Shown piece after piece: positions 58,718 to 64,000 of a stretch of DNA of 64,000 nucleotides. The notes under the pieces were generated by a model that worked only from the letters and a program-made list of their open reading frames with translations, ran no database searches and was not told where the DNA came from. The position numbers were made by a program, and so were the translations under genes. Numbering within the stretch: the stretch's first letter is position 1; each line of letters begins with the position of its first letter. The DNA is from Streptomyces sp. NBC_01465 (GTDB lineage Bacteria > Actinomycetota > Actinomycetes > Streptomycetales > Streptomycetaceae), in NCBI RefSeq assembly GCF_036227325.1, contig NZ_CP109467.1, positions 5,518,001-5,582,000 of the forward strand. Reading direction: 5' to 3'.

Positions 58718-59884
58718 GTGGGACGTCATAGCCGCCGAGGCACCACCGGCACCGCCGACACCGGGCCCATACCCGTCGGCGACAGACCGGCGGTGCAGGC
58801 CGAACCGGGGACCGGCCGTCGCAGGAGGACCGCCGAGGAGACCCACGGTCAGGTGCGCGGGGGGCATCCCGAGCACCGTGAGTGGGGCGCCGCGCCGATG
58901 CCGCAGCGGTACGGCGACTGGCAGGGCGGTCCGGGCGGGCAGCAGTCGCGGCCGCCTCGTGTGCCGGGGCCGCGGCAGGAGTTCGTGCAGGCCTTCGAGG
59001 AGACCGCCGGGGCCGCGTGGACCGCGCCGGAGCGCGAGTTCGAACCGATCGTTCCGCCCGCGGAGCCGGAGACCGCCAAGAGCGGCAAGGGGCGGGCCTT
59101 CACCGGGATCGCCGCCGCCGCGGTGACCACCGTGCTCGCCGTGGTCGTCGCCGGGCAGGTCGCCTCGGGCGGCGGCTCGTCGCACACCGACGCCCAGTCC
59201 TCGGGGACGGGCCGGGGCGACAGTTCCGCGGCCTCGCGCGGGGAGCACCGTTCGACGCCGTCGACGCTGGTCGCTCCCGTCCTCACGTACGACCAGAAGA
59301 TGGCCAAGCAGTACCCGCTGGACGCGAAGCTGACGGCGTCCGGGGAGTTCGCGACGGTGCCGGGGTCGGCGAAGGCGCCGGGGAGCGGGCGAAAGTACCG
59401 CTACCGGATCGATGTCGAGAAGGGGCTCGGGCTCGACGGCGCGCTATTCGCCGATGCCGTCCAGAAGACCCTGAACGACAACCGGAGTTGGGCGCACAAC
59501 GGGGCCAAGACATTTGAGCGGATATCCACGGGCACGCCTGATTTCGTGATCACTCTGGCCAGTCCGGGAACCACTGCGAAATGGTGTCTGAAATCCGGCC
59601 TCGACACGTCCGAGGAGAATGTGTCGTGCGATTCCGCGTCCACCGAGCGCGTCATGATCAATGCGTATCGCTGGGCGCAGGGTTCCGAGACGTACGGCGC
59701 CGACAAAATGTTCATGTACCGGCAAATGCTCATCAATCATGAAGTCGGTCACCGGCTCGGGCACTCGCATGTGACCTGCACCACTCCGGGTGCGCTGGCG
59801 CCCGTGATGCAGCAGCAGACCAAGTCGCTGGACATCAACGGAATCAAGTGCAGGCCCAACCCCTGGGTATATCCGGCCAGTTGA
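58718..59884 (+). CDS. DUF3152 membrane-anchored putative zinc metalloprotease
   Basis: 388-aa protein. A cytoplasmic N-terminus of about 125 residues precedes one helix (FTGIAAAAVTTVLAVVVAGQV). The extracytoplasmic domain has the metalloprotease motif INHEVGHRLGHSHVTC (HExxH with a third His 6 residues later) and cysteines in KWCLKSGLDTSEENVSC and INGIKC that may form disulfides. This matches DUF3152, predicted to be a peptidase. GTG start with AGGAG 12 nt upstream. Base composition drops near its end, around 59510-59900. Confidence 0.88.
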   Translation: MGRHSRRGTTGTADTGPIPVGDRPAVQAEPGTGRRRRTAEETHGQVRGGHPEHREWGAAPMPQRYGDWQGGPGGQQSRPPRVPGPRQEFVQAFEETAGAAWTAPEREFEPIVPPAEPETAKSGKGRAFTGIAAAAVTTVLAVVVAGQVASGGGSSHTDAQSSGTGRGDSSAASRGEHRSTPSTLVAPVLTYDQKMAKQYPLDAKLTASGEFATVPGSAKAPGSGRKYRYRIDVEKGLGLDGALFADAVQKTLNDNRSWAHNGAKTFERISTGTPDFVITLASPGTTAKWCLKSGLDTSEENVSCDSASTERVMINAYRWAQGSETYGADKMFMYRQMLINHEVGHRLGHSHVTCTTPGALAPVMQQQTKSLDINGIKCRPNPWVYPAS

Positions 59885-59905
59885 GGTGAGCTGTCGGGCG
59901 GGCGC

Positions 59906-59937
59906 CCGGATGTGGTTTATGTCTTTTTGACATCCGG
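59906..59937. promoter_or_regulatory. Dyad overlapping the -35 box upstream of the third importer
   Basis: CCGGATGT (59906-59913) and ACATCCGG (59930-59937) are perfect 8-bp arms separated by 16 bp. The second arm overlaps the TTGACA -35 box (59927-59932). A smaller dyad ATGTC-TTTTT-GACAT lies inside. It may be a repressor operator; alternatively it is a terminator for the preceding gene, with the T-run in the loop. Confidence 0.55.
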
Positions 59938-59955
59938 GGTGCCGTCCCCCATATT
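59927..59955 (+). promoter_or_regulatory. Sigma-70-type promoter TTGACA-N17-CATATT
   Basis: A consensus -35 and a four-of-six -10 box at optimal 17-bp spacing. The predicted start, 7-8 nt after the -10 box, falls on the A of the ATG at 59963, so the first ORF would be leaderless. Confidence 0.75.
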
Positions 59956-59962
59956 TCTCCTC

Positions 59963-60058
59963 ATGTCGCACTGCCTCGAGTCCTCCGTGAGCGCCGCCAT
60001 AGAGCTGGCGCTCATCGGCGTGACCGGGCACAGCGTCGCCGACATTCTCTGTCGCTGA
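59963..60058 (+). CDS. Leaderless 31-aa leader peptide upstream of the peptide importer
   Basis: ORF of 31 codons (starts MSHCLESSVSAAIELAL, ends SVADILCR). Of the 30 codons after ATG, 27 end in G or C, though the flanking DNA is AT-richer, so it looks translated. No ribosome-binding site exists, but the promoter above places the transcription start at the ATG. A hairpin begins at the stop codon. It is probably a cis-acting leader peptide for the operon beginning at 60222. Cys30 next to the stop is reminiscent of Cys-responsive actinobacterial leaders, a comparison I make only from memory. Confidence 0.65.
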   Translation: MSHCLESSVSAAIELALIGVTGHSVADILCR

Positions 60059-60087
60059 CGCCCGCCCTGGCGTGCGTCGGCTCTTTT
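60054..60087 (+). terminator. Attenuator-like hairpin overlapping the leader-peptide stop
   Basis: GCTGACGC (60054-60061, includes the stop codon) pairs with GCGTCGGC (60074-60081) with one G-T pair. An inner CGC/GCG extends it, and TCTTTT follows. A second hairpin, CCGCGCC/GGCGCGG (60099-60105 and 60128-60134), lies downstream. A ribosome at the end of the leader ORF would cover the first arm and prevent the hairpin. Confidence 0.6.
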
Positions 60088-60221
60088 GCGTTTCTCTGCC
60101 GCGCCCCCGGGCACAACTCTGCCCGCAGGCGCGGTAATTCTGCTTTCCGGACCCCGGTACCGCTGCCCTGTGTGGACTCTTCCTCCTTGTCTCCGCGGTA
60201 CATCGAGAGGTCTGAATTCCC

Positions 60222-61928
60222 ATGCGCCATCTGTCCCCACGCAGCGTGTCCATAGCCGCGGGTGCGGTGATCCTCGCCCTGGGCGCCGCCGCCTGCGGCC
60301 CCAAGGACGGCTCCTCCACGAGCTCCTCGGCCGACGCCACCCCGCACAAGGGCGGCGCGCTGACCGTCCTGAATGCGAACCCCACGGACAACTTCGACCC
60401 CGCGAGGCTCTACACCTCCGGCGGCGGCAACATCCCCTCGCTGGTCTTCCGTACGCTGACCACCCGCAACCGCGAGGACGGCGCGGCCGGCTCCAAGGTG
60501 GTGCCGGACCTGGCCACCGACACCGGCCGGCCCAACAAGGACGCCACGGTGTGGACGTACACGCTGAAGGACGGGCTGAAGTACGAGGACGGCACCGCGA
60601 TCACGAGCGCCGACATCAAGTACGGCATCGAGCGCTCCTTCGCCGGTGAACTCTCCGGCGGTGCACCGTACTTGAGGGACTGGCTGATCGGCGGAGCCGA
60701 CTACGAGGGCCCGTACAAGGACAAAAAGGGCCTCGCCTCGATCGAGACCCCGGACGCGAAGACCATCGTCTTCCACCTGAACAAGCCCGAGGGCGAGTTC
60801 CCCTACCTCGCCACCCAGACGCAGACGACCCCGGTGCCCCAGGCCAAGGACACCGGCGTCAAGTACGCGAACCACCCGGTCTCCTCGGGCCCGTACAAGG
60901 TCGTCAAGAACGAGAACAACGGCGAGCGCATCACGCTGGAGCGCAACAAGTACTGGTCGAACGACGACGAGCGCAAGGCCTACCCCGACACCATCGACGT
61001 GCGTTCGGGCCTGGACTCGGCCGTCATCAACCAGCGGCTCTCCGCCTCGGCGGGCACCGACTCGGCCGCCGTGACCACCGACACCAACCTCGGCCCGGCC
61101 GAGCTGGCGAAGGTCTCCGGGGACAAGAAGCTCGCCGCCCGCGTGGGCACGGGCCACTTCGGCTACACCAACTACATCGCCTTCAACACCAAGGTGAAGC
61201 CCTTCGACAACCCGAAGGTGCGCCAGGCGATCTCGTACGCAGTCGACCGCAGCTCGGTCGTCAACGCGGCCGGCGGCTCCTCGCTCGCCGAGCCCGCCAC
61301 CACCTTCCTGCCCGGCCAGGCATCCTTCGGCTACAGCGCCTACGACGCCTTCCCCGCCGGTGAATCGGGCAACGCGGCCAAGGCCAAGGAGCTGCTGAAG
61401 GAGGCCGGTTACGCCAAGGGCCTGACCATCACCCTCGCGCACAACAACGAGAAGAACTTCGAGACCAGCCCCGAGATCGCCACCGCGATCCAGGAGGCCC
61501 TCAAGAAGGCCGGCATCACCGTCAAGCTGCAGGGCCTGGAGTCCAACGCCTACAGCGACACCATCTACAGCGTGAAGAGCGAGCCGGGCATGTTCCTCGG
61601 CGGCTGGGGTGCCGACTGGCCCTCCGGCGGTCCCTTCCTCGCCCCGATCTTCGACGGCCGCCAGATCGTCAAGAACGGCTACAACTTCAACGCCTCGCAG
61701 CTCGACGACGCCTCCGTCAACAAGGAGGTCGACGCGATCAACAAGCTGACCGACCTGAACGCCGCCGCCACGCGCTGGGGCGCGCTCGACAAGAAGCTCG
61801 GCGAGCAGGCGCTGACCGTGCCGCTCTTCCACCCGGTCTACAAGCGGCTCTACGGCTCGGCCGTCAAGAACGTCGTGATCAGCGACTGGACCGGTGTGCT
61901 GGACGTCTCGCAGGTCGCGGTCAAGTAA
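60222..61928 (+). CDS. Oligopeptide ABC transporter substrate-binding lipoprotein (SBP family 5, third importer)
   Basis: 568-aa lipoprotein. The signal peptide is RHLSPRSVSIAAGAVILALGA with lipobox AAAC. The mature part starts with a Ser-rich linker and has GGALTVLNANPTDNFDPARLY, KDGLKYEDGTAITSADIKYGIERSF and FDNPKVRQAISYAVDRSSVV. It is closely related to the lipoprotein at 6241. Two bases separate its stop from the next permease. The 5' leader carries the leader ORF and hairpins. Substrate: short peptides most likely; other family-5 ligands cannot be excluded. Confidence 0.92.
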   Translation: MRHLSPRSVSIAAGAVILALGAAACGPKDGSSTSSSADATPHKGGALTVLNANPTDNFDPARLYTSGGGNIPSLVFRTLTTRNREDGAAGSKVVPDLATDTGRPNKDATVWTYTLKDGLKYEDGTAITSADIKYGIERSFAGELSGGAPYLRDWLIGGADYEGPYKDKKGLASIETPDAKTIVFHLNKPEGEFPYLATQTQTTPVPQAKDTGVKYANHPVSSGPYKVVKNENNGERITLERNKYWSNDDERKAYPDTIDVRSGLDSAVINQRLSASAGTDSAAVTTDTNLGPAELAKVSGDKKLAARVGTGHFGYTNYIAFNTKVKPFDNPKVRQAISYAVDRSSVVNAAGGSSLAEPATTFLPGQASFGYSAYDAFPAGESGNAAKAKELLKEAGYAKGLTITLAHNNEKNFETSPEIATAIQEALKKAGITVKLQGLESNAYSDTIYSVKSEPGMFLGGWGADWPSGGPFLAPIFDGRQIVKNGYNFNASQLDDASVNKEVDAINKLTDLNAAATRWGALDKKLGEQALTVPLFHPVYKRLYGSAVKNVVISDWTGVLDVSQVAVK

Positions 61929-61930
61929 CC

Positions 61931-62920
61931 ATGTCCGAAGCCTTGTCGGTCCAGGAGGCGGGGGCGGTCGTCACGGCCGCCCCCGCCTCCGGGGCGTCTC
62001 CGTTCTGGCGGCGGCTGCGCACGCAGCGCGCCGCCCTCGTCGCGGCGGTCGTCGTCGCGCTGCTGGTCCTCGCCGCGCTCGCCGCGCCGCTGCTCACGGC
62101 GCTGGAGGGCCAGGACCCGACCTCGTACCACCCGAAACTCGTCGACTCGGCGACCGGCGGCGTGCCGCTCGGCTCCTTCGGCGGGATCAGCGCCGAGCAC
62201 TGGCTCGGGGTCGAACCGCTCACCGGGCGCGATGTGTTCGCACGCGTCGTGTACGGGGCCAGGGTCTCGCTCGGCGTCGCGCTCGGCGCGACCCTGATCC
62301 AGGTGATCGTCGGGGTCGGGATCGGGCTCACCGCCGGTCTCGGCAACCGTTTCGTCGACCAGGCACTCAGCCGGATCACCGATGTGATGGTGGCCCTGCC
62401 GATCATGGTCACGGCGCTGGCCGCGCTGACCGTGGTGCCCGGGAGTTTCCCGCGTCCCGTGCTGATCGCGCTGGTCATCGGGCTGGTCGGCTGGTCCGGC
62501 ACCTCGAAGATCGTGCGCGCGCAGACGCTCTCGCTGAAGTCCCGCGACTATGTGGCGGCGGCCCGGCTGAGCGGCTGGAGCGGATGGCAGATCGCCCGCA
62601 GGGAACTGCTGCCCGCGCTGGCCGCACCCGTCATCACGTACGCCGTGCTGCTCTTCCCCACCAACATCGTCGTCGAGGCGGCCCTGTCCTTCCTCGGGGT
62701 GGGCATCAAACCGCCGACCCCCTCGTGGGGACAGATGCTCAGCGACGCCGACACCTGGTATCAGGCGGCGCCCACCTATCTGCTCATCCCCGCCGTGCTG
62801 CTGTTCATCACCGTGCTGGCGCTGACCGTGCTGGGCGAGGGCGTACGCACCGCGCTCGACCCGCGGATCGCCTCCCGGCTGCGGATCGGCACCGGCAAGA
62901 AGAAGGAGGCCGGGGCATGA
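61931..62920 (+). CDS. Oligopeptide ABC transporter permease, DppC type (third importer)
   Basis: 329-aa permease. An N-terminal cytoplasmic part of about 30 residues and a helix (LVAAVVVALLVLAALAAPLLTAL) precede the loop GVEPLTGRDVFARVVYGARVSLG and the transport domain with EAA loop YVAAARLSGWSGWQIARREL. The C-terminus is GEGVRTALDPRIASRLRIG. The DppC gene precedes DppB here, the reverse of the usual order. Overlap of 4 bp with the next gene. Confidence 0.92.
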   Translation: MSEALSVQEAGAVVTAAPASGASPFWRRLRTQRAALVAAVVVALLVLAALAAPLLTALEGQDPTSYHPKLVDSATGGVPLGSFGGISAEHWLGVEPLTGRDVFARVVYGARVSLGVALGATLIQVIVGVGIGLTAGLGNRFVDQALSRITDVMVALPIMVTALAALTVVPGSFPRPVLIALVIGLVGWSGTSKIVRAQTLSLKSRDYVAAARLSGWSGWQIARRELLPALAAPVITYAVLLFPTNIVVEAALSFLGVGIKPPTPSWGQMLSDADTWYQAAPTYLLIPAVLLFITVLALTVLGEGVRTALDPRIASRLRIGTGKKKEAGA

Positions 62921-63906
62921 GCCGGTTCCTGCTGCGCAGGGTCGCCGGAGCGCTCTTCGTGCTCTTCGCGCTGAGCGTCATCGTCTACGCGGTCTTCTAC
63001 GTGGCCCCCGGCGACGTCGCCCAGATCGCCTGCGGACCACGCTGCTCGGCCGCCCAGGTGGCCCAGGTGCGCGAGCAACTGCACCTCGGCGACCCGCTGT
63101 ACGTGCAGTACGCGCACTTCGTCCAGGGCATCTTCGTCGGCCGCGACTACTCGGGCGGCACGTCGGTCATCCACTGCGACGCCCCGTGCCTGGGCATCTC
63201 CTACCAAGGAGACCAGCAGGTCACGCAGTTGATCCTCGCCAAGCTCCCGGCCACCGCCTCGCTGGTGGTGGGCGGATTCGTACTGTGGATGCTGCTCGGG
63301 GTCGGCACCGGACTGCTGTCGGTGTGGCGGCGCGGCCGGCTCACCGAGCGGCTGCTGACCGGGCTCACCCTGGCAGGCATGTCCACACCGGTCTTCGTGA
63401 TCGGGCTGCTGCTGATCATCGTGTTCTGCTCGACGCTGCAGTGGCTGCCGTTCCCCCAGTACGTCCCCTTCACCGAGGACCCCGCCGAGTGGGGCTGGAA
63501 CCTGCTGCTGCCGTGGGTCTCGCTGGCGGCGATCTCGGCGGCTCCGTACGCGCGGATGACGCGTGCCGCGATGCTGGAGACGCTGGCCGAGGACCACGTA
63601 CGGACCTTCAGGGCGTACGGGGTCAGTGAGCGCGCCCTGGTCTGGCGGCACGCGCTGCGCGGGGCGCTCGCCCCGTTGATCGCGCTGGCCGCGCTGGACG
63701 TCGGGACGATGTTCGGCGGGGCGGTCCTGACCGAGTCGCTGTTCGGGATTCCGGGGATCGGGCGCCAGATGGTCGAGGCCGTCAGGAACGTCGACCTGCC
63801 GGTCGTGGTGGGGCTGGTGCTCGTCACCGGATTCTTTGTGGTGCTTGCCAATGCCGTCGCGGACGTGGCTCACGCGCTGGCCGACCGACGGGTGGTCCTG
63901 TCATGA
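62917..63906 (+). CDS. Oligopeptide ABC transporter permease, DppB type with Cys-rich loop (third importer)
   Basis: 329-aa permease of DppB type. The first helix is GALFVLFALSVIVYAVFYV, then the extracytoplasmic loop with C39-x3-C43 (CGPRC) and C87-DAP-C91, as in the permease at 5172. The EAA loop is VRTFRAYGVSERALVWRHAL. Overlaps both neighbours by 4 bp. The pattern of four cysteines is a shared trait of these two importers. Confidence 0.92.
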   Translation: MSRFLLRRVAGALFVLFALSVIVYAVFYVAPGDVAQIACGPRCSAAQVAQVREQLHLGDPLYVQYAHFVQGIFVGRDYSGGTSVIHCDAPCLGISYQGDQQVTQLILAKLPATASLVVGGFVLWMLLGVGTGLLSVWRRGRLTERLLTGLTLAGMSTPVFVIGLLLIIVFCSTLQWLPFPQYVPFTEDPAEWGWNLLLPWVSLAAISAAPYARMTRAAMLETLAEDHVRTFRAYGVSERALVWRHALRGALAPLIALAALDVGTMFGGAVLTESLFGIPGIGRQMVEAVRNVDLPVVVGLVLVTGFFVVLANAVADVAHALADRRVVLS

Positions 63907-64000
63907 GTGAGACTCCGCTTCCGCTGGTCGAGGTCGAGGACCTCAGGATCGGCTTCGGTGATGTGCAGGCCGTGGACGGGCTCTCCTTCACGCTGGAGGC
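63903..64000 (+). CDS. Oligopeptide ABC transporter ATPase, partial (third importer)
   Basis: The first 32 codons of an ATPase gene (MSETPLPLVEVEDLRIGFGD, then VQAVDGLSFTLEA), cut by the window end. The VEVEDLRIGFGDVQAVDGLSFTL pattern is the N-terminus of a DppD-type ABC domain. The ATG overlaps the permease stop, so this is the fourth gene of the third importer operon. Confidence 0.85.
   Translation, partial: MSETPLPLVEVEDLRIGFGDVQAVDGLSFTLE

Follow-up and report, generated by a model that had tools for sequence, protein, structure and literature searches.

The window, a 64,000-nt stretch of the Streptomyces sp. NBC_01465 genome, carries near its right end a peptide importer operon preceded by a short leader ORF, with all features discussed here on the forward (+) strand. 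Downstream of the family-5 substrate-binding lipoprotein (60222..61928; PF00496, E 5.7e-77), whose nearest solved chain by sequence is 2wok, the clavulanic acid biosynthesis oligopeptide binding protein 2, lie an OppC-type permease (61931..62920; PF00528, PF12911), a second permease in the OppB position with its start assigned through an ATGA overlap (62917..63906; PF00528, PF19300), and an ATPase of 567 aa containing two ABC domains (63903..64000; PF00005 twice, PF08352), of which only the start lies in the window. The sequence-only reading had placed the leader in front of a peptide importer operon. The lipoprotein gene has its Shine-Dalgarno sequence, CGAGAGG, at 60204..60210. A DUF3152 gene (58718-59884) is located directly upstream on the same strand and stands beside the leader in 89 of the 93 genus loci compared.

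We detected the sigma-70-type promoter TTGACA-N17-CATATT at 59927..59955, with the -35 element TTGACA at 59927-59932, a 17-nt spacer and the -10 element CATATT at 59950-59955, 7 nt upstream of the ATG at 59963. It lies where the earlier reading had put it and was the sole promoter-like site in a scan of 59700-60300, against a mean of 0.1 in shuffled sequences. The ATG opens a 31-aa ORF (59963..60058), presumed to be leaderless, with the translation MSHCLESSVSAAIELALIGVTGHSVADILCR and the C-terminal end VADILCR. As had been claimed, the ORF ends in Cys-Arg-stop and 27 of 30 codons end in G/C (the exceptions are ATA, ATT and TGT), and its conservation supports a coding function. Cys codons are found at positions 4 and 30 only, with no Cys run. 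All 93 genus leaders start with ATG and have a -35-like element 35-37 nt 5' of it (TTGAC proper in 81), and CATATT lies 7 nt 5' of the ATG in 66; this promoter-ATG spacing, conserved over the 93 loci, fits the predicted transcription start on the ATG itself.

The search against NCBIfam gave a single match for the ORF, NF042937, the Ms4533A family Cys-rich leader peptide (42.9 bits, cut-off 31), so the statement that no leader peptide of this sequence had been described does not hold. The family name presumably derives from an M. smegmatis leader of Canestrari et al. (2020). Pfam gave no match for the leader peptide, and Rfam at gathering scores gave no family in the window. Of 61 genomes, 39 gave a peptide match at E<=10, a count that includes the own genome and a weak tail; among the 199 genus genomes, NF042937 was above cut-off in 92, the own genome counted. 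The genus set was built from 95 matches, of which G028 was left out and G145 (23 bits, without a binding protein) was dropped as spurious, giving 94 and then 93 leaders. Distances, hairpins and Shine-Dalgarno sequences were counted over 92 loci (93 minus G103, which has no assigned lipoprotein start), and the alignment A1 comprised 89 loci, with G178, G031 and G035 omitted as their leaders read beyond the usual stop. The leader was additionally detected in 80/80 named Streptomyces loci, the best 80 of 170 from the lipoprotein search (some genomes overlap the genus set), when all reading frames and a wider motif were used; a narrower pattern missed 3/80.

A lipoprotein ortholog follows the leader in 93/93 genus loci (92 whole, G103 partial), with 69-85% identity, the window's own gene excluded. 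The lipoprotein ATG at 60222 is 163 nt past the leader stop, and the corresponding distance is 135-313 nt (median 192) over the 92 loci; the 140 nt given previously is right if counted from the end of the first hairpin and wrong if counted from the stop. In G103 the lipoprotein match spans query residues 151-313 only, with no start found and the leader present, and the gene looks broken or misassembled. We also searched 23 leader-less genomes (20 + 3 from two listings), out of the 104 genus genomes without a leader match. No lipoprotein ortholog was found in these 23; a lipoprotein relative at threshold was present in 22, at <=43% identity, and one had none. Since the ortholog follows all 93 leaders and is found in 0/23 leader-less genomes, the leader and the importer co-occur in this sample. 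The sequence-only reading had proposed looking for a conserved arrangement of ORF, hairpin and binding protein in other Streptomyces; the ORF and its link to the importer are conserved, and the hairpin is present in most loci.

Related leaders precede other genes. In the f6 loci, which we guess to be Mycobacteriaceae, the leader is located 5' of a sulfate ABC transporter substrate-binding protein (TIGR00971 above cut-off in 5/5 tested, the other ten of 15 loci alike by eye), and in 11/11 f3 loci it is followed by a relative of the window lipoprotein with 56-61% identity. In one f20 locus, a sulfatase gene (PF00884) comes after a leader that belongs to the same family and scores below cut-off (E 5.5e-6). 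The window leader shares with its NF042937 relatives the sequence family, the ATG at the expected transcription start, an ABC importer downstream, the VAD[IV] motif and the UGU sensor, whereas the importer is for peptides here and for sulfate in f6.

A second family of attenuator leaders, NF042934 (cis_reg_atten), is represented in the own genome by nine leaders above cut-off (L300-L309). The eight tested all precede sulfur-type genes, whose products are a sulfatase, an enzyme of the PALP family resembling cysteine synthase, a cysteine dioxygenase together with a rhodanese, a nitrite/sulfite reductase, three luciferase-like monooxygenases and, in the last case, a rhodanese. With these nine leaders in the same genome, the window leader belongs to an in-genome set. 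One NF042934 match of the own genome, L305, has no Cys, ends in VSSAY* and lies within about 600 nt of an opposite-strand leader; it is perhaps decayed or no leader. An RRHVD-type pattern was rejected as a leader finder in the own genome, as only one of the ten places that it returned was a leader.

The penultimate codon of the window leader is a Cys codon, UGU (60050..60052), two codons before the stop. The codon at this position is TGT in 93/93 genus leaders, three of which read slightly further before the stop. The count by alignment column was anchored on the last TGT, which places UGU there by construction; the codon listing and the anchoring on the peptide motif are independent of it. 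Anchored on the motif, TGT was found in 80/80 named Streptomyces, 16/16 f6/f20 and 10/10 filter-passing f3 loci, and the one f3 locus of 11 outside the motif filter (L021) has TGT by the other listing. At the other Cys positions of the genus leaders, the TGC:TGT ratio is 56:5 at -6 and 16:0 at +1, and 14 of 103 Cys codons are TGT in the window background (43 high-GC3 ORFs, chosen by length and GC3 and not annotated genes).

The same codon is found in the NF042934 leaders, which likewise carry a Cys near the C-terminus and have a different peptide motif, RRHVDLxRVxSAxC. We sampled 29 class loci, nine own-genome loci and 40 loci chosen among the matches listed, and detected sensor TGT in 77/77 Cys-bearing leaders from 45 genera: at the last profile position TGT stands in 37 of the 38 class and own-genome loci (the one remaining has no Cys) and in 40/40 further loci. 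All eight Cys-bearing NF042934 leaders of the own genome are included in this count. The remaining Cys codons are TGC:TGT 41:4 in the 40-locus set and 54:17 in the 38-locus set, in which the Cys runs of some leaders contain several TGT. Fisher tests for the UGU excess gave about 1e-35 and 1e-42, and the genus count is the better measure, because the rows are related. UGU is the rarer cysteine codon and stands at the presumed sensing position wherever examined. TGT is retained with CGC, TGC or AGC as the next codon and with a different or absent hairpin; as it holds across next codons, hairpins and the flanks of the second family, RNA structure is a poor explanation for UGU. A pattern search found one tRNA-Cys(GCA), which is not a full tRNA count, and two further tRNA-Cys patterns gave no match. 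tRNA-Cys(GCA) reads UGU by wobble and, presumably, more slowly. Cysteine, which the earlier reading had not named as a signal, is the most probable amino acid to be sensed, through the single UGU.

Downstream of the sensor codon, we detected the hairpin that had been described at the stop codon (hairpin 1, 60054..60081), a candidate terminator with the structure GCUGACGC-c-CGC-CCUG-GCG-u-GCGUCGGC and -17.9 kcal/mol, followed by UCUUUUGCGU and a U-rich tail at 60082-60097. It starts 2 nt before the stop codon, within the last codon, and its 5' arm (60054-60061) lies over the last codon and the stop. The described second hairpin (60097..60136) is GC-rich and is followed by AUUCUGCUUU. The scan of 59700-60300 returned terminator-like sites (shuffle mean 0.3) at 60067-60080, the inner part of hairpin 1, and at 59894-59909 and 59936-59948, both upstream of the ORF. 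For the 260-nt leader the predicted folding energy is -117.5 kcal/mol (z -4.6), and 0/200 shuffles equal it. The minimum free energy fold also includes a hairpin at 60148..60214 that partly pairs the lipoprotein Shine-Dalgarno sequence, and a hairpin inside the ORF, AGCGCC..GGCGCU (59990..60012). The mean energy minimum over the 92 loci, about -74 from the stop, is at this intra-ORF hairpin, which may be a pause hairpin for RNA polymerase.

Over the genus loci, the best hairpin around the stop has a mean of -12.6 kcal/mol, where shuffles average -7.8 kcal/mol; in 47 of 92 loci the hairpin is better than all 12 own shuffles. In 76 of 91 hairpin-bearing loci its start lies between 8 and 2 nt upstream of the first post-stop base, -8 being the edge of the search. 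The five core pairs of hairpin 1 hold in 84.2% of cells, against <=47% in slid controls, and its covariation score exceeds all 500 shuffles and the slid controls. Two-sided changes in the core helix were no more frequent than in slid controls (6 cells, against up to 12), and RNAalifold on A1 (89 aligned loci) gave no consensus structure. T is enriched to 0.32-0.33 at +25 to +39 past the stop, against 0.17-0.27 further downstream, and U after the best hairpin is 0.31, against 0.22 in the region. This U-tail is modest: at least 5 U in the 12 nt past the hairpin are found in 33 of 91 loci. GACGC is present at the stop in only 67/93 loci. Nine loci with a TTGCC promoter (G018, G031, G035, G036, G072, G075, G082, G178 and G199) keep the leader and UGU, have different or absent hairpins at the stop, and most of them have a GAAAGG Shine-Dalgarno sequence. 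Evidence for hairpin 1 as a terminator is moderate. The observed arrangement as a whole, namely the promoter, the ATG-initial ORF, the hairpin over the stop and the downstream lipoprotein gene, is confirmed on the sequence level and is mostly conserved in relatives.

We consider it fairly probable that the leader is a cysteine-responsive ribosome-mediated attenuator, in which transcription would stop at hairpin 1 and be relieved by stalling at UGU. Transcription would begin at the A of the ATG, and the ribosome would load at the 5' end. With ample Cys-tRNA, the ribosome would pass the UGU at 60050, reach the stop and depart, and hairpin 1 would then form and halt most transcription before the importer genes. 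With scarce Cys-tRNA, the ribosome would wait with UGU in the A site. A ribosome reaches with its leading edge some 15 nt beyond the P-site codon. The waiting ribosome would cover approximately 60054-60062, including the 5' arm of hairpin 1, allowing read-through into the importer operon. The V-A-D-I codons just 5' of the sensor (60035..60046) would place their residues adjoining the peptidyl-transferase centre, probably aiding the ribosome pause. The sequence itself shows the promoter position, the ORF and its family, the conservation of UGU and VAD, the hairpin at the stop and the importer link; translation, stalling, termination and cysteine as the signal we infer.

Counted against this attenuator are the presence of only two Cys codons, the modest U-tail, the lack of an RNAalifold consensus, the count of two-sided changes, the incomplete conservation of GACGC and the hairpins of the TTGCC subgroup. 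To look for a mutually exclusive antiterminator, we masked the end of the leader and folded 14 loci; the 3' arm of hairpin 1 paired downstream in G003, G085, G175, G108 and others, and such re-pairing was not clear in the window. Hairpin 2 of the window is predicted to form even when a ribosome is stalled in the leader, and could end transcription regardless.

The VAD[IV] residues are conserved as amino acids, with a pN/pS of 0.12 (pS 0.368) against 1.10 at the N-terminus (raw proportions over all pairs), and VAD is present in 16/16 f6/f20 loci, with ten different codon strings, and in 11/11 f3 loci. A pure codon counter would have no need for this conservation. It could be proposed that the leader works chiefly through nascent-chain arrest, with the VAD[IV]xC chain sensing cysteine or Cys-tRNA and the codon count nearly irrelevant, and the pN/pS values and the varied codons suit such a peptide. 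Pure peptide sensing would, however, have no need for UGU over UGC, and silent variation is also low in the core at -20 to -9 (pS 0.194), which coincides with the hairpin inside the ORF, so that the constraint there is partly on the RNA level. We regard arrest as the main principle as unlikely, though it is the strongest of the rival explanations.

Translation attenuation, in which the lipoprotein Shine-Dalgarno sequence is held in a hairpin and freed by a ribosome stalled in the leader, we would place next and likewise doubt. The Shine-Dalgarno sequence is largely paired in the predictions (mean unpaired 0.20 over 92 loci), and papers citing Canestrari 2020 describe, in their excerpted text, cysteine genes of M. 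smegmatis as subject to translation attenuation. Masking the leader end, however, changed its access from 0.201 to 0.177 over 92 loci, with no release; access was more than 0.1 higher in 3/92 loci and more than 0.1 lower in 14/92. The masking result is weak evidence, because the folding of a 200-nt GC-rich RNA is unreliable.

Rho-dependent attenuation, for which the E. coli tna operon is a precedent, appears to us slightly less probable still. Release of the ribosome would expose to Rho a C-rich, G-poor stretch, the start of which a stalled ribosome would hide. The stretch from hairpin 1 to the lipoprotein gene contains C 0.411 and G 0.255, with C > G in 92/92 loci, against C 0.341 and G 0.309 upstream of the leader, and the leader is retained in loci without the hairpin 1 stem. 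The excerpt of Seliverstov 2005 (PMC1262725) also suggests Rho for mycobacterial cys leaders. The C excess is, however, shared by the lipoprotein gene itself, whose first 300 nt contain C 0.416 and G 0.320, and under Rho the well-placed hairpin and the T-rich tail would have no role. A chance ORF in an ordinary 5' UTR, for which one could argue that short ORFs are common in GC-rich DNA, is contradicted by the family match, the pN/pS pattern and the conservation of UGU and the promoter, and is very improbable.

The cysteine-responsive attenuator with a transcription stop at hairpin 1 stays our preferred reading, and importer expression is probably tied to leader translation, as had been proposed from the sequence; we regard the earlier interpretation as right in part. 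Polycysteine leaderless sORF attenuators (Canestrari 2020) are reported to act through a ribosome on the Cys codons, which frees the ribosome-binding site. Such sORFs have a run of Cys codons, which the window leader does not have. Compared with the Ms4533A type, the window leader carries a single Cys at its end where the type has a Cys run, and a hairpin at the stop with no predicted release of the Shine-Dalgarno sequence. The in-genome leader set resembles the M. smegmatis set of regulatory sORFs, for which Canestrari 2020 is cited in the excerpts of PMC9094748, PMC9031893 and PMC13236596. Cysteine attenuation in mycobacteria is proposed in the excerpt of Shell 2015 (PMC4633059). Mycobacterial cys operon leaders also consist of a short ORF ending in Cys before sulfur genes and, according to the excerpt of Seliverstov 2005 (PMC1262725), are without conserved terminators. 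The uORFC-8-2 before cysS of Rhodobacterales is likewise a Cys attenuator with a terminator in the excerpt of PMC8632094 and, unlike the window leader, has two tandem Cys codons with UGC dominant. Table 4 of PMC8079986 lists eight amino-acid attenuator leaders of S. lividans TK24, which are likewise leaderless with a hairpin and a U-rich tail; none of the eight in that table has the window sequence and none is assigned to cysteine. The metL leader in the same table has three Cys among Met and Arg near its end and might be a cysteine leader. Our literature search, mostly of open-access reach, found no paper on this leader, on its place before a peptide importer or on the UGU rule (Canestrari 2020 may mention UGU). 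Most likely the window leader is a cysteine leader that senses through one UGU; it belongs to a known family, and we found no description of such a leader in this setting.

Considering both families jointly, we tentatively suggest, with somewhat less than even confidence, that actinobacterial cysteine leaders are not Cys counters but codon-specific, peptide-assisted arrest sites, with one fixed UGU behind a nascent-chain motif specific to each family, VAD[IV]x or HVDLxRVxSAx. UGU would have been chosen because of the wobble reading by tRNA-Cys(GCA), and the sensor, used by f6 bacteria for sulfate import, would in Streptomyces control a peptide importer, which would then be a sulfur-scavenging system.

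The leader probably lets the cell turn the importer on when cysteine is short, and the importer may take up cysteine- or sulfur-containing peptides. An uncharacterised Streptomyces peptide importer would in this way be linked to cysteine supply, and its substrate could be guessed at in a testable way. As it holds in two families with different motifs, the UGU rule would offer a clean single-codon test of how the shortage of one amino acid is sensed, applicable where one tRNA would have to read both Cys codons.
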